Source of the DNA: Bryopsis sp. KO-2023
Lineage: Eukaryota; Chlorophyta; Ulvophyceae; Bryopsidales; Bryopsidaceae
DNA: 64,000 bases
Direction of reading: 5' to 3'
Assembly (NCBI GenBank): GCA_030272585.1
Contig: BSYQ01000009.1
Coordinates: forward strand, 1,550,001 to 1,614,000
Part shown: one piece after another, positions 5,831 to 64,000 of the stretch
How positions within the stretch are numbered: position 1 is the stretch's first letter
Layout: each line of letters begins with the position of its first letter
The notes under the pieces: model-generated
What the model saw: the letters and a program-made list of their open reading frames with translations, nothing else
The model's database searches: none
What the model was told of the DNA's origin: nothing
Position numbers and translations under genes: made by a program

Positions 5831-6027
5831 ATCTACAAACACTGATTGTCATTCAAAAAGAAAAAACAAAATCACCCCCTCTCATAAGAAATCGAATAAC
5901 TAAAAATCGACGACCGTTCAAGCAAAGCAGAAGCTAGCGAACGGTGCAAAGAAAGAGAAAGCTGTTGCCAGGCCCTTTCCACAACTATCGACGCCCACTA
6001 GTAAAAAAACGCCTAAAAAACACATTT

Positions 6028-13859: not shown

Positions 13860-14185
13860 TGTTGGACCGGGTAGAACACAAGTACTGAAAGACAGACATA
13901 AGAGCGTCACATCAACAAATTCACACAACGGACACTCATTTCTAATGAAAGTACTACCACACGATTTGACTCTGAGAGCGATGTCAAATCTGTTGAATCG
14001 ACTGGTCAGTGCGGGTGAGAGGCCCATGGCAGTAGGGGATTTACGTTAGAAGTACGAGGTATGAGTCAGTGGAGGAAGTGTGAGAGTTGAGTGAGTCGGG
14101 AAGGAAAGTCTGTGAACGGGAGTTCGGGGTTGTCTTTTTGTTGTAAGACTTTTTTTGCGGAAGGCTCGTTCTTCCAGTAACAACA
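13860..14185 (+). repeat. left LTR of the gypsy element (326 bp)
   Basis: TGTTG...CAACA termini, same length as the right LTR, with no difference found by eye. Confidence 0.93.
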
Positions 14186-17100: not shown

Positions 17101-20100
17101 GAAAGCAAAGCTGTAGCTACGGAGAGTCCTACAGACAGGGAAACATTGGGACAGAGCCAGAGTACAGTTCAGAGTTCACAAAAGGAAAAAGGGGGCTGCT
17201 CACCCAGGGGGGGGGTAGTCGGGGCAGTGGAACAAACACACAATGAGGGACCGACTGTAACTACTGAGAGTCCCACTAACAGTGACATACTGGGGAAAAA
17301 CCAGAGTTCAGTCTCTCACCTTCAAGAGGAAACATTACTCTGCTCACCCAGGGGGGGGGTAGGGGGGACAGTGGAACAGGAGCACCTTGATCTCTGGAAG
17401 TACTGGGAAGCCCTCAGAGGGAAACCACCAGGCAGAAGTTTTAGCGAACACACTACATCCTCTTTATCTCACCTGACGACGATTTGGGAGGAGGTGGCTG
17501 ACGACCTTCTCGACAACACCACAGCAGTAGGGACAGGGGAAAGACTCTGGAACGGACATACTGCTACGGTGCAAACCACTCAGGAACAACCTGCCTGCAC
17601 GTCGGAAACGCAGTCAGAGACGGAGGATACAGGCTCAGTGGAATACTGGCGACGCGAATTTCCGAACGTGATTCGTGACGACCTTAGCAGAGACGCAAAG
17701 GCGACTGCTGCTCCTCTTCGGGTTTGCCACAGGGAGGTGAAATGGCGCGTTCCCTTCCACAGGATTCCGCTGCACAACACGGGGATACGGTACTACGCCA
17801 CCGACGTCGCGCCTAAGGAGATTCGAAAACTGCTTACCTCGTTGCAGGGGCAAGGCGTCATCCGTCCCCTGGGCGTCGGCGAGCGGGCTCTGTTCTCCCC
17901 CGTACTTTTCCTAAGGAAGCCGAATGGAAAGGTCCGTAAGACGGTGGATTTTCGTTTGCTGAACTCGTACTCCGACGCCTGGAAGACGTCCCTGCTCCAT
18001 GTCCGGGATGTGCTGAAGTCGATCCCACCTGAGTGGGACTACTTCACCGTCCTGGATCTGGAGCAGGGCTTCTTCCAGGTGGACGTTTGCGATTCGCTCC
18101 AGCCCCTCTTCGCGTTTGAAACCGGAGAGGGGGACTACACTTACCTCCGCCTTCCACAGGGATGGAATTGTTCGCCAGGGCTGTTCCACTCCCGCATTCG
18201 GAGCTCTATCCACGGATACCCCGGTCGTAACTTCGTCGACGACCTCATAATCGGCGGAGAAGGCGTCGAAGGCCATGACAGGAACCTGCGACGTGTTCTG
18301 ACCAGGCTCGACGAAATGGGATTACGGATAAACAGGGCAAAGGCGGTCGTCAGACAAAAGGAGGTTACCTACTTGGGGTACACGGTCACGAAGGGGAGCT
18401 ACGGCCTTCGACGCTACGTCGACGACCAAGTGCGTCAGTTGCCAGAAATGCGCGACGTCAGGGACGTCCGTCAATTCGTCGGCATGCTTAATGTCTGCAG
18501 GGGAGTTTGCCCGAATTTCCATAACATCATTCAACCTCTGCTGGAGCTTCCCAAGGGATCGAATCCGAAACTCATGCACCAGTTGGTGGCAGAAGCATGG
18601 AAATCCATACTGACTAATAATGTCAAGTTGGGTAATTCAGATTCTGGAGAGTATAATCTGTTTACAGACTGGTCATCCTCTGGGTGGGGGTATGTTCTGT
18701 TCAGAGGTACCCCCTCAGAGGGGTGTATCGTCAGCCTCAACAGTCGAAAGTGTGCGGATAAGGGAGGAGAAAAAGTCAGCTCCTATTTGGGGGAGCTTCA
18801 AGCTCTCATATGGGCATTGAAATCGGTTTCACAGGTGGTGGCTGGGGGTCAGCTAACCCTGCACACTGATTCGAACTCAGCAGTGCAAAGGATTACGAAG
18901 TTAGCACCGAAAGAAGTCGTGGAGGACATCAGAGTGGTGCGTCTCTTGGCTTGGTTGGCAGAGAACTACCCCTCCCCTGGAAGGTTGAGGGTTCAATTCC
19001 TGCCAGGGACATCTAACCCTTGGGCTGATCTCCTGTCTAGATGGTACAGTAGGCCAACACAAACACAAGGGCAGGTGTGTGCACTTGAACCACAAGAGAT
19101 GCAAATCAGTAAAAACACAAGCATGGAATCAGGAGGATCCAACAGATCAACAGAACAGGTGCTGGAGCAGGCTGAGGCAGTGGACTCTAAAGAGAGTGAT
19201 TCAGAAAGGTCTGGCATGTCAGGAAACACAGAGTTGGGACATGCATATACAGGAGGCTCAAGGGGAGCGGAGTTGGGCAAGATAGCGGAAGGGAAAGAGC
19301 TGAGCAGAGATCAGCTGGAACGGTTGCACAAGGAGGGACACTGGAGCCCACAAAAATTGCTATGGCTGTGTGCACAACATGGATGGAAGGCTAATAGAGG
19401 AGATCTGGAGGAAATTCAGAGGTACTGCCAGACCTGCCAGAGGGTAGCCCCTAAGAAGGAAAAAGAACTTCTTAGGGGAGCTGGGCATCTAACCCACCCT
19501 GGTCAAACAGTGGGCATGGACATCATCGGTCCACTACCCTCTGGTAGGTCTGGCCACAATCATATAGTAGTGGTGGTGGACCACCTCTCTCGTGATTCGA
19601 TGGTTTGGAAGACAAAGGAGGTGAAGGGGAAACAGGTCAGGGAGTGTTTAGGTGAGTGGATAGCGACTCATGGATCTCCAGACAACCTATTATGTGATGG
19701 AGCTGCCTACTTCCATTCGAAGGACATGAGAGCATGGTACAAAGACAACCACATTCAGGTTTGGAGGACACCCCCTTATCACCACAGAGCGAATGGAGTG
19801 GTGGAAAGGAGGAACAGAGCTCTGATTTCTAAAATCAGAGTACTGTTGTTGGATCATGGAGGGTATTGGGATGATTGGCTGCAGAAGGCCAACTGGATGG
19901 TCTGCAACATGGTGAATAAAACCACTGGATGGCCACCATGCAAAGTGTGGACACTATCAAGCAAGGAGTGGGATAGAATTCAACAGAGATTGAAGGAAAG
20001 CAGAGAAAAGGTGAATGCACAGAAAAAATTGTCTGACTGGAATCATTTTCTGGGAGAGGAGGTCCTTTTATATGATTCAGCAAGGGCTGAAAAAAAGGAT

Positions 20101-20253
20101 CAGAAATTTAGTGCAAGTTGGAAGGGACCATATAAAATAGTGGAACTGATTTCCCCCAGTCGAGTCAGGATTGAGGAAATCAATGGCAAACTCAGGAGGG
20201 GTAGGAAACCTTTCCTAGAAGTGCACAAATCACAGATCAGGCACTTCTTCTGA
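14185..20253 (+). CDS. gypsy gag-pol polyprotein (single ORF, about 2022 residues)
   Basis: From the ATG at the LTR edge: a hydrophobic N-terminal segment (residues ~8-25) and a second near residue 130; a gag helical region; a CCHC knuckle at ~312 (CQFCGRKGHWEAQC); aspartic protease VDSGSG near 396; then ~500 residues of Glu/Ser/Thr/Gln-rich spacer with internal repeats (ESPTNS..LGKSQ and CSPRGGV units). RT follows with VLDLEQGFFQVDV and FVDDLIIGG (~1350, FVDD in place of YxDD), then RNase H TDWSSSGWG (~1494). Integrase has an HHCC finger ending CQTCQ and a DDE core (MDIIGPL, LLCDGAAYF, VVERRNRA). It ends with a GPY/F-type module (WKGPYKIVEL) and no chromodomain. There is no frameshift or stop between gag and pol. 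Confidence 0.92.
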   Translation: MVSERTGWILAFGGLALLAGMSLLLQRPPTISDQNAAPATPAGRAPATYSPSPPPFSTPHTPRTSPHELWQRLMWSIRHRHSHRALPSPSPNPAAAWDTLELVQLADRMHKLWGVLRGSNANLVGAGIASSLLLGYLLKFLDKGSAWLRRRRTETAMRREVLELGSAAPAASVSTEGSATLDRLRRLQQTEGETELEFLQRYFLMFLNTGQAAEVEEEKKAVRLLVARLPGRVLSRVVVETEFEKLTFSGLRELLDRMKRRTEYREAVLAEVKKDEEGKTEGKVEAKAEPNAGTKVLVADRPPTRTGETPLCQFCGRKGHWEAQCRTKRRAQVASVNDDAFGELLEAIQNEQSSSACHSVAAGTPAGDTVRKQLRVKLRLEGEQRGSNQLFEALVDSGSGCSIMPWKVCQRHGWGVAPPKGVLTLTGFNGSKENVRGTVTLDVKIGPWEGKEVFLVSENTSQIILGVPLLAHLSLTVDCARNCLWGKNGTSIPCHAVMKVGEKSGKLERGVVRVLQDPLTKKGRRIRLVGKDGEFRLPLGSSLVLGPYAIKTVVLPFRITGPGLFSLMAIGQPHNLLHSVTTNSDGRVRLTLYNAQLEARMLTAKLCLVSFRVAEGTPVVIEEGGAEEECVEQEEDGLLPHGLDLREKEEVEPEEEGCFGIEKKGDGGCQTVSFPPQEVESEEGGCSGIEKQGDGGCKKVSFPPPKNDCGSLEVFDRTSGSKGSWGTMQSNQDWDSQTGQLASVEQQLSPEGDSRVLSNSAQNRDIPTISSDSGEQHLSSGDGCVLRSLTTQNSEAVATENPTNSATLRKSQRTASLTELDVSSATHYPLRDRIEGKDSENEGRTQTSNTDFECQPNNYNATGQFISSAREKGGKIFGLQTSSSEAVHHLPKSDTQGRVQQSKFHTQEENVASESPANSATLGTSQGTFSTPQQDQWRDLPRGREGQTCGENQGTQSVLTPNRLTAHSTLLHESKAVATESPTDRETLGQSQSTVQSSQKEKGGCSPRGGVVGAVEQTHNEGPTVTTESPTNSDILGKNQSSVSHLQEETLLCSPRGGVGGTVEQEHLDLWKYWEALRGKPPGRSFSEHTTSSLSHLTTIWEEVADDLLDNTTAVGTGERLWNGHTATVQTTQEQPACTSETQSETEDTGSVEYWRREFPNVIRDDLSRDAKATAAPLRVCHREVKWRVPFHRIPLHNTGIRYYATDVAPKEIRKLLTSLQGQGVIRPLGVGERALFSPVLFLRKPNGKVRKTVDFRLLNSYSDAWKTSLLHVRDVLKSIPPEWDYFTVLDLEQGFFQVDVCDSLQPLFAFETGEGDYTYLRLPQGWNCSPGLFHSRIRSSIHGYPGRNFVDDLIIGGEGVEGHDRNLRRVLTRLDEMGLRINRAKAVVRQKEVTYLGYTVTKGSYGLRRYVDDQVRQLPEMRDVRDVRQFVGMLNVCRGVCPNFHNIIQPLLELPKGSNPKLMHQLVAEAWKSILTNNVKLGNSDSGEYNLFTDWSSSGWGYVLFRGTPSEGCIVSLNSRKCADKGGEKVSSYLGELQALIWALKSVSQVVAGGQLTLHTDSNSAVQRITKLAPKEVVEDIRVVRLLAWLAENYPSPGRLRVQFLPGTSNPWADLLSRWYSRPTQTQGQVCALEPQEMQISKNTSMESGGSNRSTEQVLEQAEAVDSKESDSERSGMSGNTELGHAYTGGSRGAELGKIAEGKELSRDQLERLHKEGHWSPQKLLWLCAQHGWKANRGDLEEIQRYCQTCQRVAPKKEKELLRGAGHLTHPGQTVGMDIIGPLPSGRSGHNHIVVVVDHLSRDSMVWKTKEVKGKQVRECLGEWIATHGSPDNLLCDGAAYFHSKDMRAWYKDNHIQVWRTPPYHHRANGVVERRNRALISKIRVLLLDHGGYWDDWLQKANWMVCNMVNKTTGWPPCKVWTLSSKEWDRIQQRLKESREKVNAQKKLSDWNHFLGEEVLLYDSARAEKKDQKFSASWKGPYKIVELISPSRVRIEEINGKLRRGRKPFLEVHKSQIRHFF
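14186..14197 (+). promoter_or_regulatory. primer-binding site of the gypsy element
   Basis: TGGTTTCGGAGC immediately follows the LTR. The gag-pol ATG (14185-14187) spans the LTR/PBS junction, so the PBS is also the first codons of the polyprotein. Confidence 0.75.
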
Positions 20254-25298: not shown

Positions 25299-27462
25299 CT
25301 TTTCCAAAACACTATTGTTTTCTGGGGAAGAGTAAACACCACTAAGACGAGCAGAAACCTAGACTATGAGGCTGCTTCTTCAAAGAAAAAATTTGCGGTA
25401 GTATTGAAGAATTGTTATGTAGCTTGCAGCCCTAGAAAAATATTTTCACTGGTGAGAGTGGGGGGATGCGCCTATTTGTATGGGGTGGCGTTGGGATTCG
25501 AGTTGGCCGCGCGTTTCGACGTTTTCCCAGTGATTTTCTCGTTTCACTTTAGTCAGTTGGTGCTGAGAGGACAGATGGAAGAGTCTTTTGGCTTTTTTCG
25601 CGGTGTGGGAGGCTTCGTAATATCCTGTCGTCCGAATGGGGACCAAGCAAATCGATTTGTTATCCGTGCTGCCCACCAGCCGCCATGAGCCGCCACATGG
25701 CCTACACGTCCCCGTGGAACGAGATGATGTTTTTTTCTTGGGGCAAAGCCCAGTTCTGCCAGCTCGTTTCATTCCTTGATGATAATGATAATGATAATGA
25801 TTACATTGTTTATCATTCCTTGATAAAATCCCAGGCTTTGGATGAGGTGGAAATTCTCGGTGTTTTCTTTTCAAAATCTTGTTGATGAACATGGCTCCTC
25901 CCTCTGGACCAATCGAAAAATATAATGGGCGGGGCAAGGTTGACTAGTCAGGCCAGGAATCCAAGTGACGACTTAGAACAAGTGTGTTGGAATAAAAACC
26001 CCACGTTTTTGATCTGAATCTTTGTTGCAATTCCACAAAGACATATTTGACTGTCGAATTAATTTGGGTCGAGATGTTTGATGGCTACCTATTCTTTTCA
26101 AAGTTCTTTTATACACTGTCCGGTTGAAACCATCTTCCTGGATGAGGAATTCACCTTGGGTTGTTAAAATCAATTTGTTTGTTTGCTATTTTTCTAGAAC
26201 AAATAAGAAGTGCAGGTTCATGACTGTGATCTGTGTGTCAGCATTCTGGCTTTCGACTTGAGCAAAAAGAAACCAGCTACAAAAAGAAAGGATAGAGTCC
26301 CGTGATGTCAGACACTGCATCAAGGCGACTATTTGATTTATTCATAGATGTGGAATGCCAGCCAATTGCAATCCAGCTGCATGTCTGGTGTCTACCGACA
26401 TTACACCACAGTTACCTGTGCCTTAGGTTAGCTGCCACCCTAAACCCCCTTATACTTCCTGCTGACAGAGTGTTGAATCCCCCTCTTTCCACTCTCCAGG
26501 AATTTGAGAGTCGGAAGTGTGGGCACGAACGAAAACCACCTGGTATCAGATGGGAGTGTGTTTTTTTTTAACAAAAGAGGGTGGGGGTGGGGACCTTTAG
26601 ATGGGGAGAGAGAATATTACACTGGGAGATTCAGTTTCTACTGTATCTTGGTTGTTTGTGGAGGTTGAATACTTGGTGATCTGTGTGTGCTTTGTACATT
26701 TTTTTCTTCTCCACCACTGGGAACCCCTCCTGTGGTATTGTTTCTTGGGGTGTGGTTCTCCCCTCCTTTTTTTCAGTTGTGTTGCATGATTTGCTGGGCA
26801 TGTGCAAGCAAGTAAACAGAGACATTAGTGAGTGAGTGATTGATTAGAACCAGGGAGCGATGAGAAATATTGCTTCTGAGAAACAAGTACTCATCGAAAA
26901 GGGTTGCTCGTCTTTTTGTGTCTTCTGAGTTGGCAGAGTTTTTTTTATGGAATGAAAAAAAAGGAATAAAAAACATGCTTGTCGACGAAGATCCAAAGCG
27001 TCTTCTCGAAAGCTGTTCAACGGAAGCGAGTCTTGATTCGGCTCGACGAAAACCAACCTCAACCAGCTTTGGTATCTTGTGTTGCTTTGCAGTTATCACC
27101 ATCCCCCCACTTTTCACAAAACTCGTCGCACGAAAAACGACTCTCCAGCCGCCACTTTCCACCATTCCAGAAGGCGTCGACGCCGACTTCATGCTTTCGC
27201 CGAAAAGAGCAATCCTTTTTGGGCCTCTTGCGTGCACGCAAAACATCGAGAGGCTAACCAAATGGTACAACACAAGTATGCCAGACCATTTGGTTAACCT
27301 CTCGACGGTTATTCTTGCGCGACCGCGACTCTAACTAACCGCTTCGATCCCCAAAACGTGAGCACTTGTAGGTTTCCGTAGTTGTCTCTGGTGCTTCGAT
27401 TATCTTAGCGGCCAGTCTTTGAGACAGCAACTACTTTCAGCAAGCGTCAAGTTTTTGACAAA
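25299..27462. other. long divergent intergenic region
   Basis: 2.2 kb between the secreted-protein start and the kinase start. It holds a GATAAT/AATGAT trinucleotide-like run (25779-25800) and a perfect-looking hairpin at 27246-27305. A GC-richer block at 26990-27240 has frames open on both strands (166 codons minus, 154 plus), but neither shows a motif or good start. Confidence 0.5.
27246..27305. repeat. 21-bp inverted repeat with 18-nt loop
   Basis: Arm 27246-27266 (TCGAGAGGCTAACCAAATGG plus T) pairs with 27285-27305 with one mismatch. It sits ~160 bp upstream of the kinase ATG, so it may be a 5'-UTR hairpin, a protein-binding palindrome or a MITE remnant. Confidence 0.7.
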
Positions 27463-28858
27463 ATGAATACACAGCACTTCACACAGCATCTCCAAGGGTT
27501 TCCTCGATTTAGAGGCCAACGGACCAAGATTTTTCTCCGTGGCGACGCGCTACAAAAAGGAACCTCTTTGAGAAACGGCTGGTCGCGTGTGAGATGGACG
27601 AAGGAGGATAGGACCACACACGACAGCACTTCACACGACAAGAAACTACACAAGCATGGAAAATCAGGAGACGCCACCTCAGTGGTAGCCTTCTCAGAAA
27701 GGTTCGTGATTGGAGAGGTGCTCGGGAAGGGGTCTTTTGGAACAGTTTATCGAGCAACGGATACAGTCACGGGCGACGCCGTCGCGATAAAGGAAATTTC
27801 CGGGACAAAAAGCTCGAGGGAAGCAAAAAACGAGGCGCACCATCTACGGAGCCTCCAAGGGGTGTCAGGAGTCGTCAAGCTTTACGGTTTCTACGACGAC
27901 TGCGACAGGAAAAAGGACGTCAAAACGAAGACGTCCTACATCATCATGCAACTGTGCGATGGGGGGGACCTTGAGAATTTCTCGGAGGTGAAACGCACTC
28001 CTCACATGAGATTTTGGAACCCAAACCTAGGCTCGCATATATCATATATCATGATGACACACCACCAACCTGTGTGTAATGAAACTGATGGCACACAGGA
28101 GAATGGTCCACTGAGCGAGGAGCAGGTCCGGGCAGTGGCGGCGGAGGTTCTGGCGATGATCCAAGGATGTCACCACCACGGCATCCTGCACTTGGACGTG
28201 AAGGCTGCCAACCTTCTGATCGCATCCCCAGCCAGTCGGGAGCTCCTGAAGACAAATCCAAGGATGCTAAACCCCGGCTGGCTGGTGGCCTCCGATTTCG
28301 GCACGGCCCGGGTGGCTGGTAAGTTTCGAATAGTTTCACTTCACAGAATTATAGTTCTGTGGGTATTTAATACGTTGCGGTGAAGAAACACCATCAAGCC
28401 TAATGATGTGAATTGAATCAGGACTCCACTGAAAACCAAGTGAAAAAAACTGGGGTTGATTCCCCAATCTGCAAAACAGAATCTATACTGAGCCACGATC
28501 TTCTGTGGAATTTTTTGTAGGGTTGGGGTACTCCTCCGAATTCCTCGGGACGCCGACCCATTGTGCTCCCGAGGTTTTCGGAAGGAAGTACTCCAACCCA
28601 GCGGATGTGTGGAGCACCGGAACCATGCTGTTCCGTCTCCACAGCCGGAGGATGCCCTTCTGGGAGCCAGCCCAGGAGGGTCGGATGAAGACAACATCCG
28701 ACATCCTCCGGCACATCCTGAGTGGGACGCCCGGGTTCGGAGCTGAAGTGGACCCCCTCTTCCAAGACTTTCTACAGGGGCTTCTCCACAAGGATCCAGC
28801 ACAGCGACTCACACCGAGTCAGGCCTTGAACCACACGTGGCTGGCCACCACAGAGTAG
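27463..28858 (+). CDS. Ser/Thr protein kinase
   Basis: Three exons, 27463-27987, 28099-28318 and 28521-28858, give 360 residues. The first ~75 residues are basic and unstructured. The kinase domain shows FVIGEVLGKGSFGTVYRA (glycine loop), AIKEI (ATP Lys), a Glu-bearing helix (SSREAKNEAHHL), YIIMQLCDGGDLENF, HLDVKAANLLI (catalytic loop), SDFGTARV (Mg Asp), GTPTHCAPEVF and DVWSTGTMLF. HLDVKAANLL resembles the STE20-type HRDIKAANIL but has Leu in place of the HRD Arg, so it is a non-RD kinase. Group assignment (STE or CAMK) is uncertain. Intron 1 (27988-28098) is 111 nt, a multiple of three without a stop, so retention would add 37 residues in the C-lobe. Confidence 0.9.
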
Positions 28859-46700: not shown

Positions 46701-49700
46701 AGACTGAACTCCACCACCGCATTCTTTGGAGCATTCATTCCATGGATCTATGTCGAATCGGAAAGCCTCACAGGGAGCCGTGTTGCATTCACGTTCTGTG
46801 ATGGACTCTGGGAGATCCCTACAGGCCTCCTTTGGTGCGATGTCCCCAGTGGAGGAATCAAAACACGTGGCTGCCCTGAATCGCTTCCCTGTTGACCAGC
46901 AAGATGCTCATACACAGATAATTAACCCGATGATTACGTTTCAGATGTGTGGAGGGAAGGGCATTCCCTCACAACAGATGCCAAAATTCGTATAGAATTG
47001 AGGGAGGCAGGGCTGGCACTGACCTCCTCCGCAGGCTCTATCACACGCTCCCCAGGGTTCAAGCCTGTAGAAAAACTCGCTCTTTGTACAAGACTCCGTT
47101 TCGCAAATTTCTACCCTTTCGATGGCGTCCATTTCTTCTTTGTCACAGTTTGACTCGAGTGCCAGGGTCCCCATCGCTGATCGGCAGAACACCATTCGCT
47201 CCTTTTCAACACAAATCCAAGAATAAATTACTGTTGCTTCATGAGGCGCAATTCTCCTCACCCCACCTTCCCCCCATCCCCCTGCCCCTGTTCCAGGATA
47301 AAGGAGGTGAAATAACAGAATAAGGGGACCCACGCTTCGGCCTATGGCTGTGAACTCTCCTTAAAACGAAGAAAAGGGGGTAGAAAACAGAAATGAGGAT
47401 AAAAGATGTGGAACAGCAACTTTCAGAAGTAGCTATTTGGGGGGTGACACTGAGTTCTCAGTCGATGCAAGCATGTGGGTGTTCTCCATGCTTTGGCAGC
47501 TGCAAACATCATGTAATCCGAATCTACTAAAGAATTGTAACTTTGGGAGTGCCCCCCAGCTCACCGCCGTGCTGGCTCCTGGCTCCCCACACGATTGAGA
47601 ACAATCTCCAAGCTCAGCAACAAACACCTCGAAACCCTCTAGGCGACCGCTGCCTCCATCAACGTTGTTGGAAGGCTCGAATTCCGTTTCTGTTGTTTCC
47701 ACCTCGTTTACTTTAGTTCCCACCTGATCATCAGCCCAATCCTTAAATCCCTCTCACATCGACGAAAATAACAAGAATTTGCACAAGGGGAATAGGTGTT
47801 ACAGTGGCTGGACGGCCATAACAATAGGTGGTGCTACTGGTTCCCGTAGGATCCGGTGTTTACCTTGCGTCCACCCTCTGGTCCTGTCGATGGTGCTTTG
47901 TTCCCCTTCAGGTCACCCTCCACATTGCTGTTTTCTTCTGGACTTGGGGGTGGAGACCCCAGGGTTTTTGACTTTGAAAGGGTCACCGCTCCCTTGTCTG
48001 AAGTATCAGAAGGGGCCGGCGCTGGGGAACCCGGTTCCACTCCTGGCCCTTCCTCTGGTGGTTCAACAGGAGCCTCAACTGGTAAAATTGGCTCCACCCC
48101 TGGCCCTTCCTCTGGTGGTTCAACAGGAGCCTCAACTGGTGAAATTGGCTCCACTCCTGGCCCTTCCTCTGGTGGTTCAACAGGAGCCTCAACTGGTAAA
48201 ATTGGCTCCACCCCTGGCCCTTCCTCTGGTGGTTCAACAGGAGCCTCAACTGGTGCAATTGGCTCCACCCCTGGCCCTTCCTCTGGTGGTTCAACAGGAG
48301 CCTCAACTGGTGAAATTGGCTCCACCCCTGGCTTTTCCTCTGGTGGCTCTAGAGGACCCTCAACTGGTGAAATTGGCTCCACCCCTGACCCTTCTCCTGG
48401 TGGCTCTAGAGGACCTTCAAATGGTGAAAATGGCTCCACCCCTGGCCCTTCCTCTGGTGGCCCTAGAGGACCCTCAACTGGTGAAATTGGCTCCACCAAT
48501 GCCCCTTCTCCTGGAGGCTCTAGAGGACCTTCAAATGGTGAAATTGGTTCCACCCGTGCCTCTTCTCCTGGTGGCTCTACAGGAGCCTCAACTGGTGTCC
48601 CAACCAACAGATCCTCCAGGTCTTTCCCTAGACCTACACCCAGCACCATGTTCTTTGCATCCCTCTTTGAACCACTTCCACCTGATGAAGAAGGTGGCCC
48701 CCCTCGAGTAGTTTTTGAATGAAGCAGTGGCTGTGGAGGGGCCGAGAAATTTCCTGGTGGTGATGCATCCGTCGAGACGTCCCCAGGTGGTGATGCAGAC
48801 ATTGAGGCATCTCCTGGTGGAGGGGCCGAGAGGTTTCCTGGTGGTGATGCACCCATCAAGATGTCCCCTGTTGGAGGGACTGAGAAATTTCTTGGTGGTG
48901 ATGCAGCCGTTGAGAGGTTCCCTGGTGGTGATGCAAGCGCCGAGATGTCCCCTGGTGGCGACGCAGCCACCGAGATGTCCCCTGGTGGAGGAGCTGAGAA
49001 GCTTCCTGGAGGTGATGCAGGCATCGAGGCATTCCCAGGTGGAGGGACTGAGAGGTTTCCTGGTGGTGGAGTATCCATTGAGACGTCCTCCGGTGCAGGG
49101 GCCAGGAAGTTTCCTGGTGGTGATGCATCCATCGAGATGTCCCCTGGTGGAGGAGCTGGGAAGCTTCCTGGAGGTGATGCAGGCATCAAGGCATTCCCAG
49201 GTGGAGGGGCTGAGAGGTTTCTTGGTGGTGAAGCATCCATTGAGATGTCCTCTGATGGAGGGGCCAGGAAGTTTCCTGGTGGCGATGCAACCGTCGAGAT
49301 GTCCCCTGGTGGCGATGCAACCGTCGAGATGTCCACTGGTGGAGGAGCTGGGAAGCTTCCTGGAGGTGATGCATCCATCGAAATGTCTCCTGGTGGCGAT
49401 GCAACCGTCGAGATGTCCACTGGTGGAGGAGCTGGGAAGCTTCCTGGTGGTGGTGCAGGCATCGAGATGTCCCCTGGTGGCGATGCAACCGTCGAGATGT
49501 CCACTGGTGGAGGAGCTGGGAAGCTTCCTGGAGGTGATGCAGGCATCGAGGCATTCCCAGGTGGAGGGACTGAGATGTTCCCTGGTGGCGATGCAACCGT
49601 CGAGATGTCCCCTGGTGGCGATGCAACCGTCAAGATGTCTCCTGGTGGAGGAGCTGGGAAGCTTCCTGGAGGTGATGCAGGCATCGAAGCATTCCCTGGT

Positions 49701-51570
49701 GGAGGGACTGAGAGGTTTCTTGGTGGTGAAGCATCCATTGAGATGTCCTCTGGTGGAGGGGCCGAGAGGTTTCCTGGTGGTGATGCACCCATCGAGATGT
49801 CCCCTGTTGGAGGGGCTGAGAAGCTTCCTGGAGGTGATGCAGGCATCGAGATGTCCCCTGGTGGCGATGCAACCATCGAGATGTCCCCTGGTGGAGGAGC
49901 TGGGAAGCTTCCTGGAGGTGATGCAGGCATCGTTATGTCCCCTGGTGGCGATGCAACCGTCGAGATGTCCACTGGTGGAGGAGCTGGGAAGCTTCCTGGA
50001 GGTGATGCAGGCATCGAAGCATTTCCAGGTGGAGGGGCTGAGAGGTTTCCTGGTGGTGATAAATCCATTGCGACGTTGCCTGTTGGAGGGGTTGGGATGT
50101 TTTCTGGTGGCGATGCAATCGTCGAGATGTCACCTGGTGGAGAAGCTGAGACTGGTGGTGATGCAGGTGTCGAGACATCCCCTGGTGATGACGCAGCTGT
50201 CGAGACCACTCCTGGTGGTGATGCAACAGTCGGGACTTCTCCTGGCTGAGGGGTCGAGATGTTTCCTGCAGCCGTTGACACCACTGCTGGTGGAGGGGCA
50301 AAAAGTTGTCCTTGTGGTGGTGATGTTGGTTGGAGCGGTCCTTGTGAAGGAACAGGGCTGCTCGTGTTGGGCAGTGTTGGTGGTGCCGGTGAGGGTTCTC
50401 TGTATCCCGGAACCAAATGGGCTGGGCGTCCAATAATCCGTGCACTTGTAACACACTGGAACTCTGTCTCTTTACATATGCTCATGCATCTTCCTCCTAT
50501 AACCTTGTTGTATGTTGGCTCATCGAGTGTGAAGAGATTTGCACATTCCCACATGTGTAGAGACTGAAACACAAAGACAAGTTAAACCTGGGATCCTTGG
50601 AGAATTCACAGTCTATCATCCTACTTATTCTGAAAAAGTTCTGACCATTATTGAAATGCTATCCCCACTTTTACCTCTATTCGCTTGCAGCCTGATTCAG
50701 TTACAAGTGCTGCAGTTGTTCTTGGTATCCTGACGGCGCAACCATCTTTTATGCAGACAAAAGTAGTCCCGAATTTGCATTGACTCGCTCGATTAGATTC
50801 ACATTCCACTGGCAAACTGCCTCCACATTGAATTGAGCATGATCTCAAAGCTACTCCAACCGCCTGCAACAATATGAAATTTGGGAACTTGGAACTTGAA
50901 TCTCACAGCAGATTTCAATGGAACAGAATGTAAATTGCATGCGCTTGCCTGAGAAAAACTCTCTACTTCTTTTCCAGTTTTGAAGACATGGCAATTGCAC
51001 ACATATCGCAGATTTTCAGCGGTACAACCTGCACTGAACCAGAACATGTGAGTCTCCATGTTGCATTCATCATGGATTAGGATCTGCTGAAACTCAGAAT
51101 CGAAAATCTGTACCACTCTCCATATCCAATGAAGCATCTTTTATATTGCTCACTTTAGAATGAAAAAACATCCTCTAACAAATTCCAAATGGAACGTGGC
51201 TTTCTATTGGAAACGCACTATTGCAAGGATTGGGAGTTTAAGTATTTCGGTCGTCGAAAAGGCTTCAGCCTATGTTGGAATCCCTATGGACTGAAGATGC
51301 TGCACACAGCCAGCGAGCAGCGCTCCGGACCTCGCAGTTCTATTCCGTACCCACTGATTGGCGCTGCTGCAGCTGTCGTGTGGCATGCAAGTCCACCTCC
51401 GATAACCAATTATCAATTTCCCCAGCGTGGCTCCCAACCAGCAACCCCAATAGGACCCAAACAATTATACCCCCAATCCCTCGACTCTTTGTTACACGCG
51501 ACCTACACTGGGCGCCCATTTTTCCTTCTGCCCGTGTGGCGTTTATTAATTTCCTTGCTTTTGTTTCCAT
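43749..51570 (-). CDS. large single-pass surface protein with TSP1 and EGF-like repeats and a giant Pro-rich exon
   Basis: Twelve exons join in phase to 1854 residues: 51570-51355, 51107-50949, 50863-50675, 50563-47864, 47723-47565, 47201-47024, 46888-46508, 46303-46026, 45910-45719, 45371-44839, 44658-44371, 44040-43749. A signal sequence (GIGGIIVWVLLGLLVGSHA) is followed by a degenerate TSP1-like unit (RSCSIQCGG) and a 900-codon exon of SPPG- and EPPEEGPG-type repeats. Then come TSP1 units (LGDCSQSCGEPG; PWGACDRACGGG; PWNECSKECGGGVQSRRVEC), EGF-like units (CSGNGNCDNGVCTC; CSGNGKC) and DECGVCDGDGSSC. A membrane span lies at ~1669-1690 (SAGLLGGVLVVLLLATVIMA), then a KKRR stop-transfer and a ~160-residue Ser/Thr-rich tail. 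The role is probably adhesion or extracellular matrix contact. Intron 2 uses a GC donor. METKAR is taken as start; MGAQ at 51519 is an alternative. A donor-like GTGAGC near 43815 leaves the C-terminus slightly uncertain. Confidence 0.8.
48020..48610 (-). repeat. 57-bp coding minisatellite (about 10-11 copies)
   Basis: Each unit encodes 19 residues of the type PVEPPEEGPGVEPISPVEA. Copies nearest 48050-48310 are almost identical, and those toward 48600 diverge (EGPLEPPGEG). The unit is a multiple of three, so expansions keep frame. Confidence 0.85.
48720..50260 (-). repeat. Pro-rich coding repeat array (SPPGDIS/SPPGSFPAPPP units)
   Basis: About 1.5 kb of higher-order repeats built from ~10-13 residue units such as ASPPGDISTV, ASPPGSFPAPPP and PPGNLSAPPP. 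Many contain NxS/T or Ser/Pro clusters suited to glycosylation, like algal hydroxyproline-rich glycoproteins. All units keep the reading frame, which also leaves long meaningless frames open on the other strand. Confidence 0.85.
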
Positions 51571-55110: not shown

Positions 55111-58100
55111 CTACAAATGATCCAGCATAATTCTGTGTGCCACCATTCCACTGACAATCTCTCCAAACCTGCTGATCCATTTTTCCATGGTATTGCCCTC
55201 TGCAGCCTCAGTGCCATCTGGGACCTATCCAAACAAAAACAAAACCACCATTGACCGATGCAAAATTGAAAAAAACAAGAATGATTCCAGAAACTTGCAG
55301 TGGCAGACAGGGACAAGAACAACATGTTGATCTTTTCACGTCTGAGCATGGTATTGTGTGGATTACCCTCGAGGAATTAAAGATATCAGTGGCCGTCAGC
55401 TCCCTGCCGATTTTCGGGTCATCATAGAACTTTTTGAATTCGGCTTCCATTGCTGCTGTCACTGCTCCATTGATACGGCAAAACATCAACTCCACTTTGT
55501 GGCTCGACAGCTCTTCCATCATCAGCTGAACCGTCAGTCCCTCAGGATCACCATCAGGGTAGCTTTAAAAACAAACACACACCGCTCATTCGATTCCCAG
55601 AAAATTTGTTCCTACCTTAAACTGGTGAAGTGAGGGTGCTGTTTCTTTTTCTTCTGGTTACCTGTCGTGTAGACCACCGTTGCAATCACGGCCATGACCT
55701 GGAGCATCTGCAATTAAAATGACGAATTTTACCCTGCCTTCCCAGTCGCCCATACTTGCAGCAGCTTTTAGAGCCCCCAAAACATCTTCGGGAGCGTCTC
55801 CTCCACCTCCTGCAGTCAGTCCCTGCAGAAACCCGAGGAACTCTGGCACATCCTTTGTGAACTGCTGCACCCGTATGCGTTCAGCATCTCCATAATCTTT
55901 ATAGGCCACCATCGAAAAGCGCAGCTCAATTTTTATGCCTGGGTGCTGCTCGTTGACCTTTTGGGCGATACCTTCAGTGATGAGCTGCAGGGTCCAAACA
56001 AAAAATTGGCAATGTTATTCTGGTGAAATTCTTGCGGCAACAGAAACCTCCTTGCAATAAAATTCTCACCTTGATTTGAGATTTGGACGCCTCTATCCAT
56101 GGCCCCATTGACCCTGTCGTATCCAGAACATAGCATACATCCACAGTCATGGCACTTGGGGTGTTCCCTGCTCTAAGTTTAACGCTTCTTTCACCCCTGA
56201 GCTGCTCGAGAAGATCTGGAAAGGCACTCTTTTGATGTTGCAAAATATCTTCCATACTCTCCCTTGCATCAGCAGCCATCGGAGCAAACTGGGACCAATC
56301 CTCGCAGTCATCCACCATATTCAGGCGCAGTCCACTTCCCTGCGCGGAACCCTGCTCCTGGCACATCTTCAGAGCCTCCGGAATCGCACAAGGCAAGACG
56401 GCAGTCAGCCATTTGTTGTAGCAATGTGGAACAAAAAGCTTGTCAAACCCCACTCCGATGGCCAAAACTTCCACCAACTCTTCTTCAGCTCTCTCCAAAG
56501 CCTGCGCCAGTCTGACTCCACTTGTGCCAAACCCATCCGAGATGATGAAAATCTTTCGGGGGCCCTTAGGATTTGTCGCTTGAAAGAGGCTCAAAGCACA
56601 CTCTATGGCATCAGCATCAAGGCTGGCATATTCACGATCGTGTCGGAGATTGCTCAATAAAGCAGCAATCGATGCTCCATCCCATGGAGTGTCCGGCAGC
56701 TTGACAACATACATGCTGGACCCAAACAGGAGCACCGTGAAGTTTTCAATATCCATGGACAAGAGCCCCTCCACGAACATGACCAATGCTTCCACAGAGC
56801 ACTGAGCAAGATGACCCCCCATGGACATGGAGATGTCCACCACGATTGTCACTGCATACTGCCTCTTCCCACCAGACTTCTTGGCAGAGAAGTACTTTTT
56901 GTAGTTGAATTTCGTTGTCACAGCTTTGATCAGCCCCTGGAGGTGCAACGAGGTCCCCCTCTCGCTGGCTTTGTTTCTGGTGTACACGTTCACAGGCAGA
57001 CACTCCTCCAGCGCTTCCACCATGGAATCGATCTGGCCTGCAACCCTACCGGCCGCCTCACCCCACTTGCTCTGAGCCTCTTTCATCACCCCAAGAAACG
57101 CCTCATCAGAATCCACCGCAGAATAGAAGTCGTGGGTCTTGTCGATGGCCACCTCCACCAATGAGTCATCTTTCTCTGCTCGTGGAAGGCTCTTGGCTTG
57201 ATCCAGGAAGGGAATCTCCTCGCTGCCATCACCAACCTGAAACATGGACAGCTGCTGGATGCCCCCAGCACCCTCCTCCTTCCCCTTGCTGTAACTCAAC
57301 CTCCCAACAGAATTCAAAATCCCGACATCAATTTTTTTAGCTGGTGTGGGTGGTGAAATAGGTGGCTGGAATATTTTTCCGCCCCTTTCTTGCGGTTCCG
57401 TAGCACCTTTAAGCATTTGATCAAATTGCTTGATGATCAGACCAGCGAGCAAGATGGGCAACTCCTCCACAAACTCGACATCCAAAACCTCGTAGCACGA
57501 AGCAACGCTACCCCAAAGTCGTTCAATATCCTGCATGATCGATTCTTGCATCCCATCCTTGAGATTCAACACTACAAGGTCCACCTCCCGCTCCTTCGTG
57601 ATCTCTGTGTAGTCGGCCGGATCTTTTTCTTGGGTGAGCCCATCGACCATCATCAGCATGACTCTGTGTCTGATTCCTTTTTCATTCTCGTTGATGGGGT
57701 GGGGCCAAACCTTTGCTGCAACATTAGCAAACCCAGAGGCCGGGTGTGTTGCTTCGTCATAGGAGAAGGACTCCAGTATCTGTTGACCCAGGCCGTTCGA
57801 AAAAGTCTGGCCGAATGTCTTCAGCATCCTCTGGCTCTTTTTCCCACCGAAACGAGCTATGGCGAAAGGGCATTCCAAGCGTCTCAATGTCTCAATGGCC
57901 AGCACCAGGGCTTCTGCAGCCTGATTGGCCTGTACAAAAAAGTAGAAAAAACCACGTATCCTGCTAAGGTCGTTGGACAAAATTACCTACATTGTGAATC
58001 AAGACATGGAGACTCTGTGCTACCTTTGTGATCATTGATCCTGAGTTATCCACCAGCAGGCACCATTCAAAGATGTGATTCTCGGACGTCTTCTGGTAGA

Positions 58101-61100
58101 ACTGCTCCTGCTGGCTTCGAAAATCGTTCAACACCATTCTGCAGTATTTCATCAAAGGCTTGGACTCCACCAGTAGCTGGTATGTCCATTTCTCATGTCG
58201 ATCAGAAAGATCCATCTGGAGCGGGTCCTCGATAGGAGTCGGCGCATTATCTCGCCTGGAATGCAGCACCATTTTTGGTTAACTGTAAATGGATACATAG
58301 AGAGAGATGTGGTGCGCACACAGCATTGAGGAAAGAGGCAAATACAATGGAATCGCATCCACACCTGAGAACACGCTTATCCTTGTACATCTTCAAAAAA
58401 TCACACTTCTTGAGTTGCTCCTCGGTCAAGCGAGGGTTTACTTTGAACTTGGCCATAGCTTCGGTTATCTCTTCATCGTCAGCAATGCCTGCACAGATTT
58501 CTGCACCCCTAGAGAAATCGATGGGTCCATCCATTGCACCACGTGATCTGGCTTTCTTTGCATTGCCTGCCTGAGCACGATAAACCGCCAAAGACAGACT
58601 CGTATTTTCTGAAGGCCCGGGTGTGTTTCTGGGTGACGGCTGCGAAATCTCAGAGCTCCCCGGTTCGCCAGATGCTGCGTCGTCCCCCCGACCAGCAAAT
58701 ATGTCTGTGAAGTCTACATCGTCGATCATAATCGACTGTTTCAAGATGGAAGTCTTTGAGGAATCCAACGCTATTCCAGAACACATGCCTTTCCCTTGAT
58801 CCCCACTCAACATCACACTGTTCAGATTTTGGGTATGGTGCTGCTCGCTTCTTCTTCGGCTGTTCGACAGCCCCAGTGATTCAATCTGGCCGGGGGTGTA
58901 GTCAGGCGTGGTGCTATCATAGTTTTCGGCTTCTCGAATCCTCCTCCTTGATTGGGATGGCATCTGAAAGTCGACATTCGTGTGCAGGGCTGTGGCTGAT
59001 CCTGGTTGCAACATCGAAATTGCTTTCTGAATGTCTTTGTTGAGGTTTCCCCCTGGGATCAAGCTGAGCAGTCGGAGGATCTCCCCACAGGTGAACCGAA
59101 TCTCTGCTTGCCCACCCTGGTGCCCATTCCCCATCCACATCCGAAAACACTCCATTGCCATGCAGAGCTTGATTCCGAGATGGACAACAGTGGGTTGAAG
59201 CGCTGGATCGACTACCTTGTGCCCCAGGCTGATCATCTGACAGGCCTGCTGAAAGATGGACATCCACTCCTCCGCAGCATATTTCGCTTCAGCAAGTGCA
59301 GGCAGGATATTGGCTGGCAACTCAGCATTGATCTCCACCTTTTTTGGGATCTGGTTCACAATGTCAAGCGAGTTGTCTGCAAGACGCTCGATCTCTTTAA
59401 GTTTCTGAACGATGGACTCCTCCACCTTTTCCTTGATATAACTGCTTGATTCATCAGCGAAACTGCTGGCATCAGAGTCGTGATCGTCACAGTCGCGGTT
59501 AATTTCGCCGTCAGACACCAAGCTTGTCTCAGGGAATGGGTACCAGCACTCCCCAGATTCCTCGGCTTCTGCTGGTAGGTAGTCGTCACTTTCACTTCCA
59601 TCATCCTCAGGGGAGCGTTCTTCTCGAATTTGTGGTGGTGCAAACGGAATCACCATGTCTTTTGATTCATGCAAGTCGCTTCCTCCATACAGCTTGCCCA
59701 TTGCGAGCAGTAAACCCATCTTAGATGCTCTCCAGCCCAGATCAGAGTTTCCCCTAAACCAGAACACACACACACATCTCAGCCCACAACAAATTCCATC
59801 GAAAGTGCATAAGGTCGATCTCGTTCCTTCCACTAGGCTGGGGCAATTAACGAATAATTTGCAAAAAATATACCTTGACAGCATGCATCCCAGATATGCC
59901 CAGTAAACTTCCAGTGCTGCGCTCTGGTGCAGGCGGCTTGCTGGTGAGTGTGGCTTGCTGAGAGAAGCAATCGAGTGGATCAACTGCTGAAGAAACGAGA
60001 TCCCTTCAAGTCTATTAGCTTCATTCCAGGTGTCTGCAGCTCCTTGCGCTGCCCTCAAAATCTTGTGAACTTTCTGCACCTGTTGTCTCCGCTCCTGAAG
60101 CCCCAAAGAAAAGGAATCAGACCACCAACACACGGCTAGCTAGTTATCCTGCAAAATATCATGCTGTCACTGTTTAAATGACTTACTCTGCACAGTCCAG
60201 CAAGCAGGGACTCTTCCAGATCCCACCGATTGTTTCTGAAGGACTGCCGCATTGCCTCAGTAGTCTGCTGAATAGCTTCATTCTCCTCCTCGTTGACAGA
60301 CAAACAGATCAACCCATCTTTGACTCTTGATGAGCTCCCCTCACTTTCATCAGCTGCACCTGACCCCAGGATACCTACAGAACGAACCATTGCCACCCAT
60401 TGATCCTTCACTTTGCTTGATATCTCTTCCAAAAAGCTTTCACAGCATTAAACGTCAAGTGATTTTTGTCAGAAATTTCACCACATAATGGAACAAACAG
60501 TTTTAAAAGGATTCAACCTGATACAGTATCCACGGTGTCCAGAAGCTCGGGAGATTTCCCATCAATCGTCACCAAAGCACGAGCTATGAATTCAACACCC
60601 TTAAAGTCTGGAGGTTCGTGCATCGTGAAGTCATCCGAGGCCAGCTCCTCCTCCCTCCCTTTCATGAACAATGCGATTCGAACGACCCTGGTAGCAAGCA
60701 AGCATTCCTTTATCAGATATGTTGATCAATGAATTCCAAACACTGAGGTAATGGACTGAGATGAGCAGCTCTTACCTCAAAAGAGTTTGGAACCTGCTCC
60801 AAGGGGGCTTCGCGATAAGATTCCGAAGAATTTCTGCAATATCCAGTATGGGGGAGCCGATTTCTTCCCTAAGGTCGTCAGGCAGGGCTATCCAGAGAAC
60901 CCTTACCATTCCGTGGATGATCCTGCAGATTTCAATAACAAAAAGACCCTTATTTTCTGGCTGGTTTGAAATCCAGGCCATAGATCCATTCCTTGAGCAA
61001 AAAGTGCACCGAAGAGAATTAAAGGAGGCTTTCATTACTGATAATGTCAAATCATGGAACCCACCCATCAATTGTGTTGCTGCCAATATCCTGCTTCAGT

Positions 61101-64000
61101 TCAGTAGCTGCCTTCATGATGTCGACCATTCTCTGAGACTCCGTGGTCGAAAAGTCTAAAACGATCTTTCCGATTTGCTCCCTTTGAGCACTCGTCAACG
61201 ACGAAGCAGAATGCCATTTTGGAAAATGCCGCACAGTTTCTAAGATTGCCCTCCAAATCTTGCTGGCCCCCTCTTTCGCCTGCGCTTTTTCAATAATCTG
61301 CGAAACTGCCTCATTCACTGCATCGATGGCATGCACACAGCAGCGGGACATCGTGGGATACATTTCCATGGACGAGCGTAACAGATCCTTCGCCTTTGTG
61401 GTCTGGAAACCCAACTTTCCTATGGCTTCCAACAGACTTCTTCCATTTGCAATCTCCAGAGCTTCGCAGAAAGCTTTAAGAATCCCTTTGAAGGAACCAT
61501 TGCCTGTGGACTGTTTTTCCAAAATTCGAAGGAGCCCAAGCAGCATTCTGCCACAATGCCCAGAGGACAATGCCTGCACGATTTTTTGGCTCCCTGGATT
61601 CAACAAAGTGGACTCAAGAGATTCCGTTGGAACCCTTCCATCATCAACTCCTGAGGCAACATTCAACAGGGTCGATACAACATCATCCTGCGGCTCCAAA
61701 TTCCCCAATCCCTGCAGCAACTGAGGAAAACTGCAGGCCCCATCGTCCAGGCAGCTGATACAAGCTTTCACAATATCAAGAGAAGAGGTGTCCACAATAT
61801 CCAGGGTATCCTGCACCATTCCCACAGTTTCCGTAAAAGAGCATTGATCCTCGGCCACCAGCTTATTCCAGAGGTGGTCAGCAGCATCCTGGAACTTATC
61901 GGCGATCGCTCTATTTGGCATGATTTCAACAATGCAAGTGCAAGCCGCCATCCAGTTGCTGTCGCTCTCCGAAGCGATCAAGCAGGCACAATACACCGAC
62001 TGAAAAGAATCTTTCAGGACCTCGGCCGGAATATCAAAGGGGGTCGAATGCGATGGGGTCGAAATCTTCTTTTCCAGGAATGGTTGCAGTTTTTTCCGTG
62101 CGTCCCCATGCTTCAACATGCAGTTCCCTCTCTTTTTCATGTAGTTCATCAGAGAATCTACAGCGGCACTCACGTCCCCCGGAACGAAGCGCTCCAATCT
62201 TTCCAGCAGTTCCAACTGTGCAATTTTGCTGGCCTCTACATCACAGAGGTCATATGGCAAAACTGCAAACAGCAAGAGATGAGGCAGGGTGTCTTCGCTT
62301 GATTTCACAAGCTCATAAACGATGTCCAAGCTCAGAGATCCAAACTGTTGCCAATTGGGTAACAATTGAGTCCTCTTTGAGTTTCGCATTGCGAGGGACA
62401 AATATTGGGAGGGCTTCCCAACATATCCCAATATACAGATCTTGCGATGGTCCCCTTCACAATCAAAGCCGGCTCGGAAATCGTTGATCGGAGAAAGCGT
62501 CACGTGTTCTTTGAACCAGCCTGGAGTTTCAGGTGCCTTGAATTTCATCCGAATGCGAGCATCGCCCTTGTAGATTGCAAACTGCATATCATTTTTGGTT
62601 TTTCCATGCATGCACTCCACACGGACATCCTGTCCGGAGGCACTCCTACCCCAGCTAGACATCTGCAGAGTGGATTCGCCTATGTTCGAAACATCAATCT
62701 CTGCCCCAACTGTTTCACCAGCCTCGAAGAACTCTCTGCAAACAAATGTCTTGGATCCTTTGATCTCCATGCAGGGTCCCCTCATGTCGAATTGCAGTTC
62801 GAATGGCAAAGACTCTCCTGCTTCCGTAAAGAGACTGAGCTTCGATTTGGTCGCTGGCCACACACACATGGGATCGACAAAGAGCAGCATTTTGACACCG
62901 GCACTCTCTTTGGATTCCACTGTCACCACATCCTTCTCGAACTCCACAGCTTCGCCTTTGGGAGTGAGCACTTTGGCTCCGACCACCCCGTCATTCGAAA
63001 TCATCACAGTTTTCTCAAGCTGGATTTTACCATCGCGCTGGGGTAACTTCTTTTGCGGGATCTGGATGGTGATTTTTGATGGCCGCACAGCAAGTCTTGC
63101 AACTCCCCAGCTTCCCTACCACAGAGAATACAAGCTGTTCAACAGTTGCCGACAGTTGCTGCATTTTTCTAAGTCTGACATGGCGTATATAGGACTGTGA
63201 AAAGTTCACAGTACACTAATTAGAAAAGTTAGCACCAATCAGAGAAAAAAACGAACAGAGAATCACCCCCCCGCCAAAAAAAAAATACCTTGAGCATGAA
63301 GTTCTGCTTTCCACATCCAAGAACGTTCAATTCGAAAGGATATTCCCGCGAGCCGCGTTTCTCCTCAAGGGAAATATACACTTTTCCTGCCCTGTCCGGA
63401 AGAATATCTCCCGACTTGCCTCCAATGAAATTCAACCCAGGGGCACTGGAATCAAACTTGAACTGCACTGGAACCTTCCCAGAGTTCTCAAGTTTCAGCC
63501 ACGTTTCCAGTTTTTCACCAGATTTTGCTGCTGGAAGCTTGATGCTTGAAAACTGCCCGACTGGATGCTCATTCTGATCCAGCAGTCTGAAGGATGGTTT
63601 GACAATGCTCACCCTTGCACTGATGGTTTTCAGGTTGTGGCTGGAGTTCACCCCCACAATAACATCGCAAGAAGACTCTCCGACAAACGCACCAGGATCC
63701 AATTCCAGCTCAAAAACCTTCTCCTCATAACCCCCCAGCATTAAGCGCGTCGGCTGAATATCCCAAACGCAAGAAGGTGCCTCCTGGACCTGCGATTTGA
63801 TCAGAAGAGTAGCACCCATGCTATTCCGAACCTTGAACTTTCTCTTTTGTGGTCCTGAATTTGCTGCAATATGTCCAAAATCAATCCCCTCACAATCAAA
63901 GTCAACCCGCAGCTTCTCAACTGCTGCTTTCACAATCAGCATCCCCTTTGGACAGGCATGGCCATAATCAATCTCCCACTTTCCTTTCAGCTTCCCCATC
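55111..64000 (-). CDS. giant protein with three tandem VWA domains and MSP/ASH-like N-terminus (5' end outside window possible)
   Basis: Twelve exons join in phase: 63999-63289, 63115-61065, 60991-60776, 60687-60518, 60425-60187, 60094-59874, 59753-58365, 58255-58024, 57929-56070, 55984-55662, 55562-55367, 55224-55111; 2573 residues from the ATG at 63999. The N-terminal ~450 residues look like repeated immunoglobulin-like MSP/ASH domains (GIDFGHIAANSGPQKRKFKV; LKLENSGKVPVQFKFDS). A ~1200-residue helical and acidic middle follows. VWA1 has LLVDNSGSMITK (~1735), split by an intron before ANQAAEALVLAIETL. VWA2 has IVVDISMSMGGH (~2105) and IFIISDGFG. VWA3 has YVLDTTGSMGPW (~2344), VAYKDYGDAERIRV, GGGGDAPEDVLGAL and LIADAPGHG, the alpha-kinase (VHK/MHCK)-type VWA, but no kinase domain follows. 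All three MIDAS motifs look metal-competent. VWA1 resembles midasin-type VWA. The function is unknown; a scaffold is likely. Confidence 0.8.

Follow-up and report, generated by a model that had tools for sequence, protein, structure and literature searches.

Here we describe a giant gene of the green alga Bryopsis sp. KO-2023 that enters a 64,000-nucleotide stretch of contig BSYQ01000009.1 (C9:1550001-1614000; hereafter the window) at its upper edge. The gene lies on the minus strand at 83189..55111, in window numbering that is continued past the window edge at 64000, and in the spliced model it consists of 20 exons encoding 8,566 residues (948.8 kDa). The predicted domain order is an N-terminal domain, six AAA+ modules (the sixth recognised by motifs only), a long linker region, an array of ASH/Ig-type domains, an acidic stretch, and three VWA domains with metal ion-dependent adhesion site (MIDAS) motifs. 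By linking the composition of the ring, the conservation of the chain among paralogues, and the layout of known mechanoenzymes, we argue that the gene probably encodes a giant midasin-family AAA+ mechanoenzyme; a non-ribosomal role on a side branch of that family is less supported.

Gene model

The source assembly comprises 91,088,769 bases in 28 contigs, and 30 kb upstream of the window, together with related stretches retrieved by DNA search, were added to the analysis. Positions 55111-64000 encode only the C-terminal third of the protein, and sequence upstream of 64000, expected by a preliminary description of this DNA to complete the model, did so: the start ATG lies at 83189, 19 kb past the window edge on the same contig, as located from open frames and alignment to two other C9 loci (at 1742 kb and 1345 kb). 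All 19 introns were placed by hand as GT-AG introns, guided by splice sites common to the three C9 loci. The reading frame is kept across every intron, and no internal stop interrupts the 8,566 codons of the window copy, whose own stop codon is at 55113-55111. The proposal of one giant gene with multiple VWA domains agrees with the two near-complete paralogues, in which its exons are matched and 18 of its 19 intron positions can be clearly made out by nucleotide alignment; the donor of intron 2 is the weakest point of the model, a matching donor being unseen in the C9:1345 kb locus. Eleven introns fall inside the window, one fewer than the 12 junctions first counted; a 24-base intron near 63120 was dropped in favour of a 173-base intron backed by the paralogues.

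A midasin-type AAA+ ring

Exon 2, in a 952-residue frame, contains the Pfam family AAA_5 three times together with the midasin lid (PF17867), while exon 3 contains AAA_5 once and exon 4 contains AAA_5 once with a second lid. The two lids score 35.3 and 25.4 bits (cut-off 22.7), and in a genome scan modules AAA1, AAA2, AAA3, and AAA5 each score singly above the AAA_5 cut-off. Searched against the PDB with phmmer, exon 2 (AAA1-3) matches midasin (6or5) at E 4.3e-106, its third module aligning best on midasin's third, whereas dynein reaches at best E 2.5e-5 in the same search; the next matches after midasin are bacterial NorQ, CobS, and CbbQ, mixed with dynein. Exon 4 (AAA5) matches midasin at E 1e-89, with the best stretch on the fifth module, and exon 3 (AAA4) matches midasin chains only (four of four up to E 0.1; E 4.8e-9), best on the fourth; these module ranks follow our own reading of module order along the midasin chain. 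Judged by these sequence matches, the ring is of midasin type and closer to midasin than to dynein, and a dynein identity was rejected given its far weaker PDB match.

In the window copy Walker A and B motifs are intact in AAA1 (GATGVGKT/LLDELN), AAA3 (GPPAVGKT/LADELN), and AAA5 (GPPGIGKT/LLDEIN). AAA2 keeps Walker A (GKSGCGKS) with Glu changed to Asn in Walker B (LLVDN), AAA4 has a broken Walker A (GPTSFKT) with VIEDYD, and AAA6 has GDTCSKKT with LLDNIN, again a Glu to Asn change in Walker B. The same pattern recurs in all three copies with single changes only (the C9:1345 kb copy, for instance, has GETSFKT and GGTCSKKT), and the GVGKT of AAA1 and GIGKT of AAA5 are conserved among copies in nucleotide alignments. 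Three alternating active ATPase sites, at AAA1, AAA3, and AAA5, are predicted. In yeast Rea1, AAA2-5 are functional and AAA1 and AAA6 lack Walker B (PMC6286127; this and the other papers cited were available as excerpts, to which statements resting on them are limited). Because the Rea1 ATPase pattern is not reproduced, we file the gene as a divergent relative and not as the ribosomal midasin. A passive scaffold of MSP and VWA domains is rejected here since the ring lies upstream, in the part of the gene outside the window; for the same reason the chain is most likely an ATP-driven remodeller.

ASH/Ig array and acidic stretch

The whole of exon 9 (72225..63289, minus strand) measures 8,937 nt, and its 3' end, at 63289..64000 in the window, encodes residues 6034-6270 with two Ig/ASH-type domains. 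In a spliced 571-residue region from residue 5934, the HYDIN-type Ig family scores 28.1 bits (Pfam cut-off 25.5) and DUF1573 scores 30.7 bits (cut-off 26.1), both at residues ~6065-6160 and inside the window, and Motile_Sperm scores 25.7 bits, just below its cut-off of 25.9, at residues ~5975-6029, just outside it. An AlphaFold2 model of the 237 in-window residues, built with three alignment rows, has a predicted local distance difference test (pLDDT) of 72.9 and a predicted template modelling score of 0.60. The top 22 Foldseek rows for this model, with E-values between 2.2e-13 and 1.8e-9 and query TM-scores of 0.33-0.65, comprise 19 chains of the ciliary central apparatus and 3 CEP192 SPD-2 chains. 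Bacterial Ig-like folds enter the list from rank 23, and the fold class is therefore firm, the family less so. By profile and by predicted fold, then, an ASH/MSP-type beta-sandwich is present in mid-protein. The MSP/ASH-like domains proposed in the preliminary description hold, but their N-terminal position does not. ASH domains are known from centrosome proteins and TRAPP subunits (PMC11922060, PMC4094338), and because such domains are present a cilium or centrosome role is possible.

Exon 10 (61065..63115, minus strand; residues 6271-6953) appears by eye to hold about two more Ig/ASH-like domains, to ~62425, followed by a region of unassigned fold; its translation alone gave no credible Pfam match. 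Exons 11-14 (59874..60922, minus strand; 60922-60776, 60687-60518, 60374-60187, and 60094-59874) encode residues 6954-7195, which are among the faster-evolving ones, and are separated by GT-AG introns with matching positions in the two near-complete paralogues. Exon 15 (58365..59753, minus strand; residues 7196-7658) encodes the acidic stretch and then a segment with no known domain, and its translation has no Pfam match. The acidic stretch (residues ~7200-7350) reaches 29% Asp/Glu per 100 residues around residue 7225 and lies between linker and MIDAS domains.

VWA/MIDAS domains

The motifs DNSGSM, DISMSM, and DTTGSM all occur in one spliced minus-strand chain ending at 55113-55111, as the preliminary description had read. 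Exon 16 (58024..58255, minus strand) holds the start of VWA1 with DNSGSM at 58050-58033, and exon 17 (56070..57929, minus strand; residues 7737-8356) holds the rest of VWA1, VWA2 with DISMSM at 56837-56820, and the start of VWA3 with DTTGSM at 56123-56106. The middle of VWA3, with GGGGDAPED, is encoded by exon 18 (55662..55984, minus strand) and its end by exon 19 (55367..55562, minus strand). The domains were scored against Pfam as separate spliced pieces: VWA2 matches VWA (E 5.9e-7, 30.3 bits, above cut-off) and VWA3 matches VWA_4 (PF25106; E 3.3e-11, 43.5 bits, cut-off 27). The spliced C-terminus gave three PDB matches up to E 1, two of them discussed below and the third, a viral protein at E 0.89, taken as chance. 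One of the former, 8ql1, is labelled NDE1, and from its aligned letters we infer that it is a midasin MIDAS domain. Comparison of VWA with VWA gave less than 4% hhalign probability in six of six pairs. Each VWA had been assigned to a different subfamily; the midasin flavour stands, and the three-way split is only partly borne out, because VWA1 and VWA2 both find their best, weak match in a midasin-type MIDAS chain.

About 225 residues follow the third MIDAS motif, as against the ~200 residues after the third VWA first estimated, and the chain reaches 55111, as predicted, without an alpha-kinase domain. VWA3 is presumably of the alpha-kinase-associated type. We reject a special loss of the kinase because the translated 3' ends of both near-complete paralogues have no alpha-kinase domain either and show a fourth VWA followed by a stop. 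This fourth VWA (~190 residues) stands directly before the shared C-terminal peptide, at the junction that corresponds to intron 19 of the window copy (55225..55366, minus strand); its motif reads DESGSM at C9:1742 kb (Pfam VWA_2, E 1.3e-10) and DESPSM at C9:1345 kb. The window copy has no fourth VWA and keeps its reading frame across the missing part; exon 20 (55111..55224, minus strand) supplies the last 37 codons and the stop, and its C-terminal peptide is similar in the paralogues. Since the fourth VWA is present even in the more distant paralogue, its loss in the window copy is the simpler history.

Paralogues and selection

In pieces identified by tblastn, the C9:1742 kb copy covers 8,564 and the C9:1345 kb copy 8,548 of the 8,566 residues; the tblastn list includes cross-matches among AAA modules, on which coverage does not depend. 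Rates of synonymous (dS) and nonsynonymous (dN) substitution were computed by the Nei-Gojobori method. The C9:1742 kb copy is the nearer (dS 0.293, dN 0.088, dN/dS 0.30 over 8,547 residues), and the C9:1345 kb copy gives dS 1.091, dN 0.262, and dN/dS 0.24 over 8,532 residues. Whole-exon dN/dS ranges from 0.04 to 0.54 across all 20 exons in both comparisons, with 0.13 and 0.11 for exon 17. Against the nearer copy, the slowest exons are ring exons 2-8 (dN 0.01-0.08) and exons 16-17 with VWA1-2 (0.04-0.05), and the fastest are exons 10-14 (0.12-0.29) and exons 18-20 with VWA3 (0.15-0.22), which may be interpreted as a motor and two hooks that stay constant while the adaptor parts change. Because coverage is nearly full in two paralogues and dN/dS is low, the whole chain, ring through last VWA, forms a maintained unit on this comparative reading. 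The C9:1742 kb copy has a GC instead of a GT donor at intron 8, before the large exon, and the stop that both copies show in exon 20 was read as the natural end.

Three fragments of 583 (C1:977 kb), 199 (C9:1449 kb), and 83 residues (C1:1370 kb) were also found. At C1:977572-978132 and its neighbours, exon 15 sequence joins exon 17 almost directly, without exon 16; by its sequence this is a dispersed partial copy of the giant-gene family. Two C2 loci with AAA_5 modules lie ~55 kb apart on opposite strands, at C2:2100618-2105343 (plus) and C2:2158966-2162770 (minus), and are probable further family members, with modules spaced by 969 and 3,373 bases in the one and 3,427 bases in the other, compared with 963 and 3,274 bases in the giant gene. 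The AAA_5 scan of the genome scored 23 of 141 candidates: the C9 copies account for 12 matches and the C2 loci for 5, and 6 occur singly elsewhere, such that 17 of the 23 lie in five loci with the module spacing of the giant gene. With exon 2 as query, bacterial and archaeal genomes and viral contigs gave 5 and 2 pattern matches, respectively, of which none was confirmed, in a search that finds close relatives only.

Other features of the window

The 2,045-residue open frame at 14116-20250 (plus strand), with matches to aspartic protease, reverse transcriptase, RNase H, and integrase, is on these matches a long terminal repeat-type retroelement. A protein kinase exon lies at 27409-28380 (plus; Pfam Pkinase, E 6.8e-24), and a 1,113-residue open frame at 1617-4955 (minus) has no Pfam match at E 0.01. 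At 47834-50581 a long open frame of 915 residues on the minus strand overlaps another of 574 residues on the plus strand, neither with a Pfam match; the bin 48001-50000 has the highest G+C fraction (0.581) among the 2-kb bins of the window.

Weighing the explanations

Several results weigh against a midasin-family mechanoenzyme. The first 854 residues match nothing in Pfam or the PDB. The 2,741 residues of linker region that were searched gave no midasin-linker match in the PDB, the one match being at chance level (E 1.9); a three-row linker profile gave eight PDB matches, none below E 0.06, and an AlphaFold2 model of a 1,150-residue linker piece is mostly helical with an unusable pLDDT of 34.6. 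The acidic stretch is ~150 residues long versus the ~600 residues reported for Rea1 (PMC11603028). VWA1 falls below the Pfam cut-off (E 0.0023, 18.6 bits, cut-off 23.8) and matches 8ql1 weakly (E 0.023), and the best PDB match of VWA2 with the sequence before its fold, the Rea1 MIDAS domain 6qt8, is also weak (E 0.0064). Within the ring, AAA6 is spread over exons 4-8 with Walker-like motifs as its sole basis, and exon 3 of the C9:1742 kb copy carries one internal stop, in the acidic insert of AAA4, which was kept as it stands.

It is conceivable, if rather unlikely, that we are dealing with the organism's own ribosome-assembly midasin, which would have gained domains and multiplied into several copies. 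The ring and its module order match midasin's, and VWA1 and VWA2 weakly match the ribosomal MIDAS domain; however, the genome contains three near-complete copies that have diverged, besides three fragments, one copy is short of a VWA, the ATPase sites are placed differently from those of Rea1, and the available excerpts of PMC6286127 and PMC11603028 mention no ASH array for Rea1. The concentration of 17 of the 23 scored AAA_5 matches in five family-like loci also speaks against it, but a compact midasin may be among the six single matches or the other 118 of the 141 candidates. We find it improbable that the family is a lineage-expanded defence or quality-control ATPase, like bacterial MoxR-vWA conflict systems or RNF213, with a variable middle that senses targets. 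RNF213 is linked to defence. A cluster of several copies, accompanied by fragments and with an internal stop in one copy, would suit such a function, as would a slow ring and VWA1-2 beside fast exons 10-14 and 18-20; bacterial conflict systems use the MoxR-vWA pairing (PMC7159879), and RNF213 has a dynein-like core (PMC7311170). No effector domain, however, was found among the exons scanned, and dN/dS nowhere exceeds 0.54, these being whole-exon and not site-wise values.

Decay of the window copy as a pseudogene, to which the missing fourth VWA and the existence of related fragments might point, is very unlikely given 8,566 open codons with no internal stop, a frame kept across the missing part, and low dN/dS. 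Nor is it at all probable that two or more genes, one midasin-like with the AAA+ modules and another downstream of it with the ASH and VWA domains, have been read as one. The joint does rest on 19 predicted introns and an uncertain intron 2 donor, but a single 8,937-nt exon spans the end of the ring, the linker region, and the ASH domains, all introns keep the frame, the same chain is found in three copies at up to dS 1.09, and none of the 20 exons reaches a dN/dS of 0.55; separate genes were rejected on the strength of continuous exons conserved in three copies.

Proposed mechanism and significance

Midasin is an ATP-driven machine that removes helper proteins from young ribosomes. In Rea1 a swing brings the linker to the ring, where it is engaged by ATP hydrolysis; its top makes contact with the MIDAS domain docked on the ring, and assembly factors are pulled off (PMC11603028). 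The MIDAS domain binds ubiquitin-like domains in an integrin-like way (PMC6624252). As a probable midasin-family mechanoenzyme, the giant protein is likely to be a pulling remodeller by homology of its ring and, more weakly, of its VWA hooks. As in Rea1, ATP hydrolysis in the ring would drive the linker towards VWA hooks that are docked on the ring and grip a ligand, and this ligand would be pulled out of its complex. The three hooks, or four in the paralogues, may grip different ligands or subunits, or grip cooperatively, and the ASH array may anchor or select the target complex. Less well supported is the view that the family forms a side branch, expanded within its lineage, whose task is not 60S assembly and may lie at a ciliary or microtubule structure. 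A changed role is favoured because there are three near-complete copies and three fragments, one copy lacks a hook, and the ATPase pattern differs. We suggest tentatively, short of an even case, a second, non-ribosomal midasin-type class that is near-megadalton in size and has expanded and diversified in one lineage; its ring would alternate three ATPase sites, its ASH array would serve as the anchor on ciliary or microtubule structures, and it would carry three to four different MIDAS hooks.

Among the literature matches listed, which come mostly from outside subscription journals and were seen as excerpts, there is no described midasin paralogue and no midasin-like, protist, or giant AAA/VWA family of such a layout, in keeping with the earlier statement that no described protein has this domain order; annotated but undescribed relatives may well exist. 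Were the proposal true, the force-generating midasin design would have been reused outside ribosome assembly, midasin's role in the papers cited, and the natural loss of one hook and the 1-3-5 ATPase pattern would offer handles on the cooperation of ring, linker, and MIDAS domain.

Comparison with known systems

The giant protein shares Ig-like ASH domains, recognised from Pfam profiles and predicted fold, with proteins of the ASH/HYDIN/SPD-2 group such as HYDIN, CFAP65, and CEP192; to our knowledge, none of these three has an AAA+ ring or MIDAS domains. With alpha-kinase-associated VWA proteins of the vwkA type the giant protein has in common a VWA3 that carries DTTGSM and GGGGDAPED and matches VWA_4. 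In vwkA-type proteins an alpha-kinase follows the VWA, whereas the giant gene and its two paralogues end without one. In bacterial MoxR and vWA systems (RavA-ViaA, NorQ-NorD, CbbQ, and ternary conflict systems) an AAA+ protein of the MoxR/midasin clade likewise works with a vWA partner (PMC7159879), but there separate small subunits form the ring, whereas here everything is in one chain.

The closest parallel is midasin (Rea1/MDN1), with which the giant protein has in common an AAA+ ring whose modules 3, 4, and 5 match the modules of the same rank, the midasin lid, and C-terminal MIDAS/VWA domains; in its layout, an N-terminal region, a long linker region, and an acidic stretch also take the places that such parts have in midasin. 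It differs in size (8,566 residues versus nearly 5,000), in its ASH/Ig array, in having three or four VWA domains and several gene copies where midasin has one VWA, in an N-terminal region (~820 residues) and linker with no detectable similarity to midasin's, and in its intact ATPase sites, which lie in AAA1, AAA3, and AAA5 as opposed to AAA2-5 of yeast Rea1.

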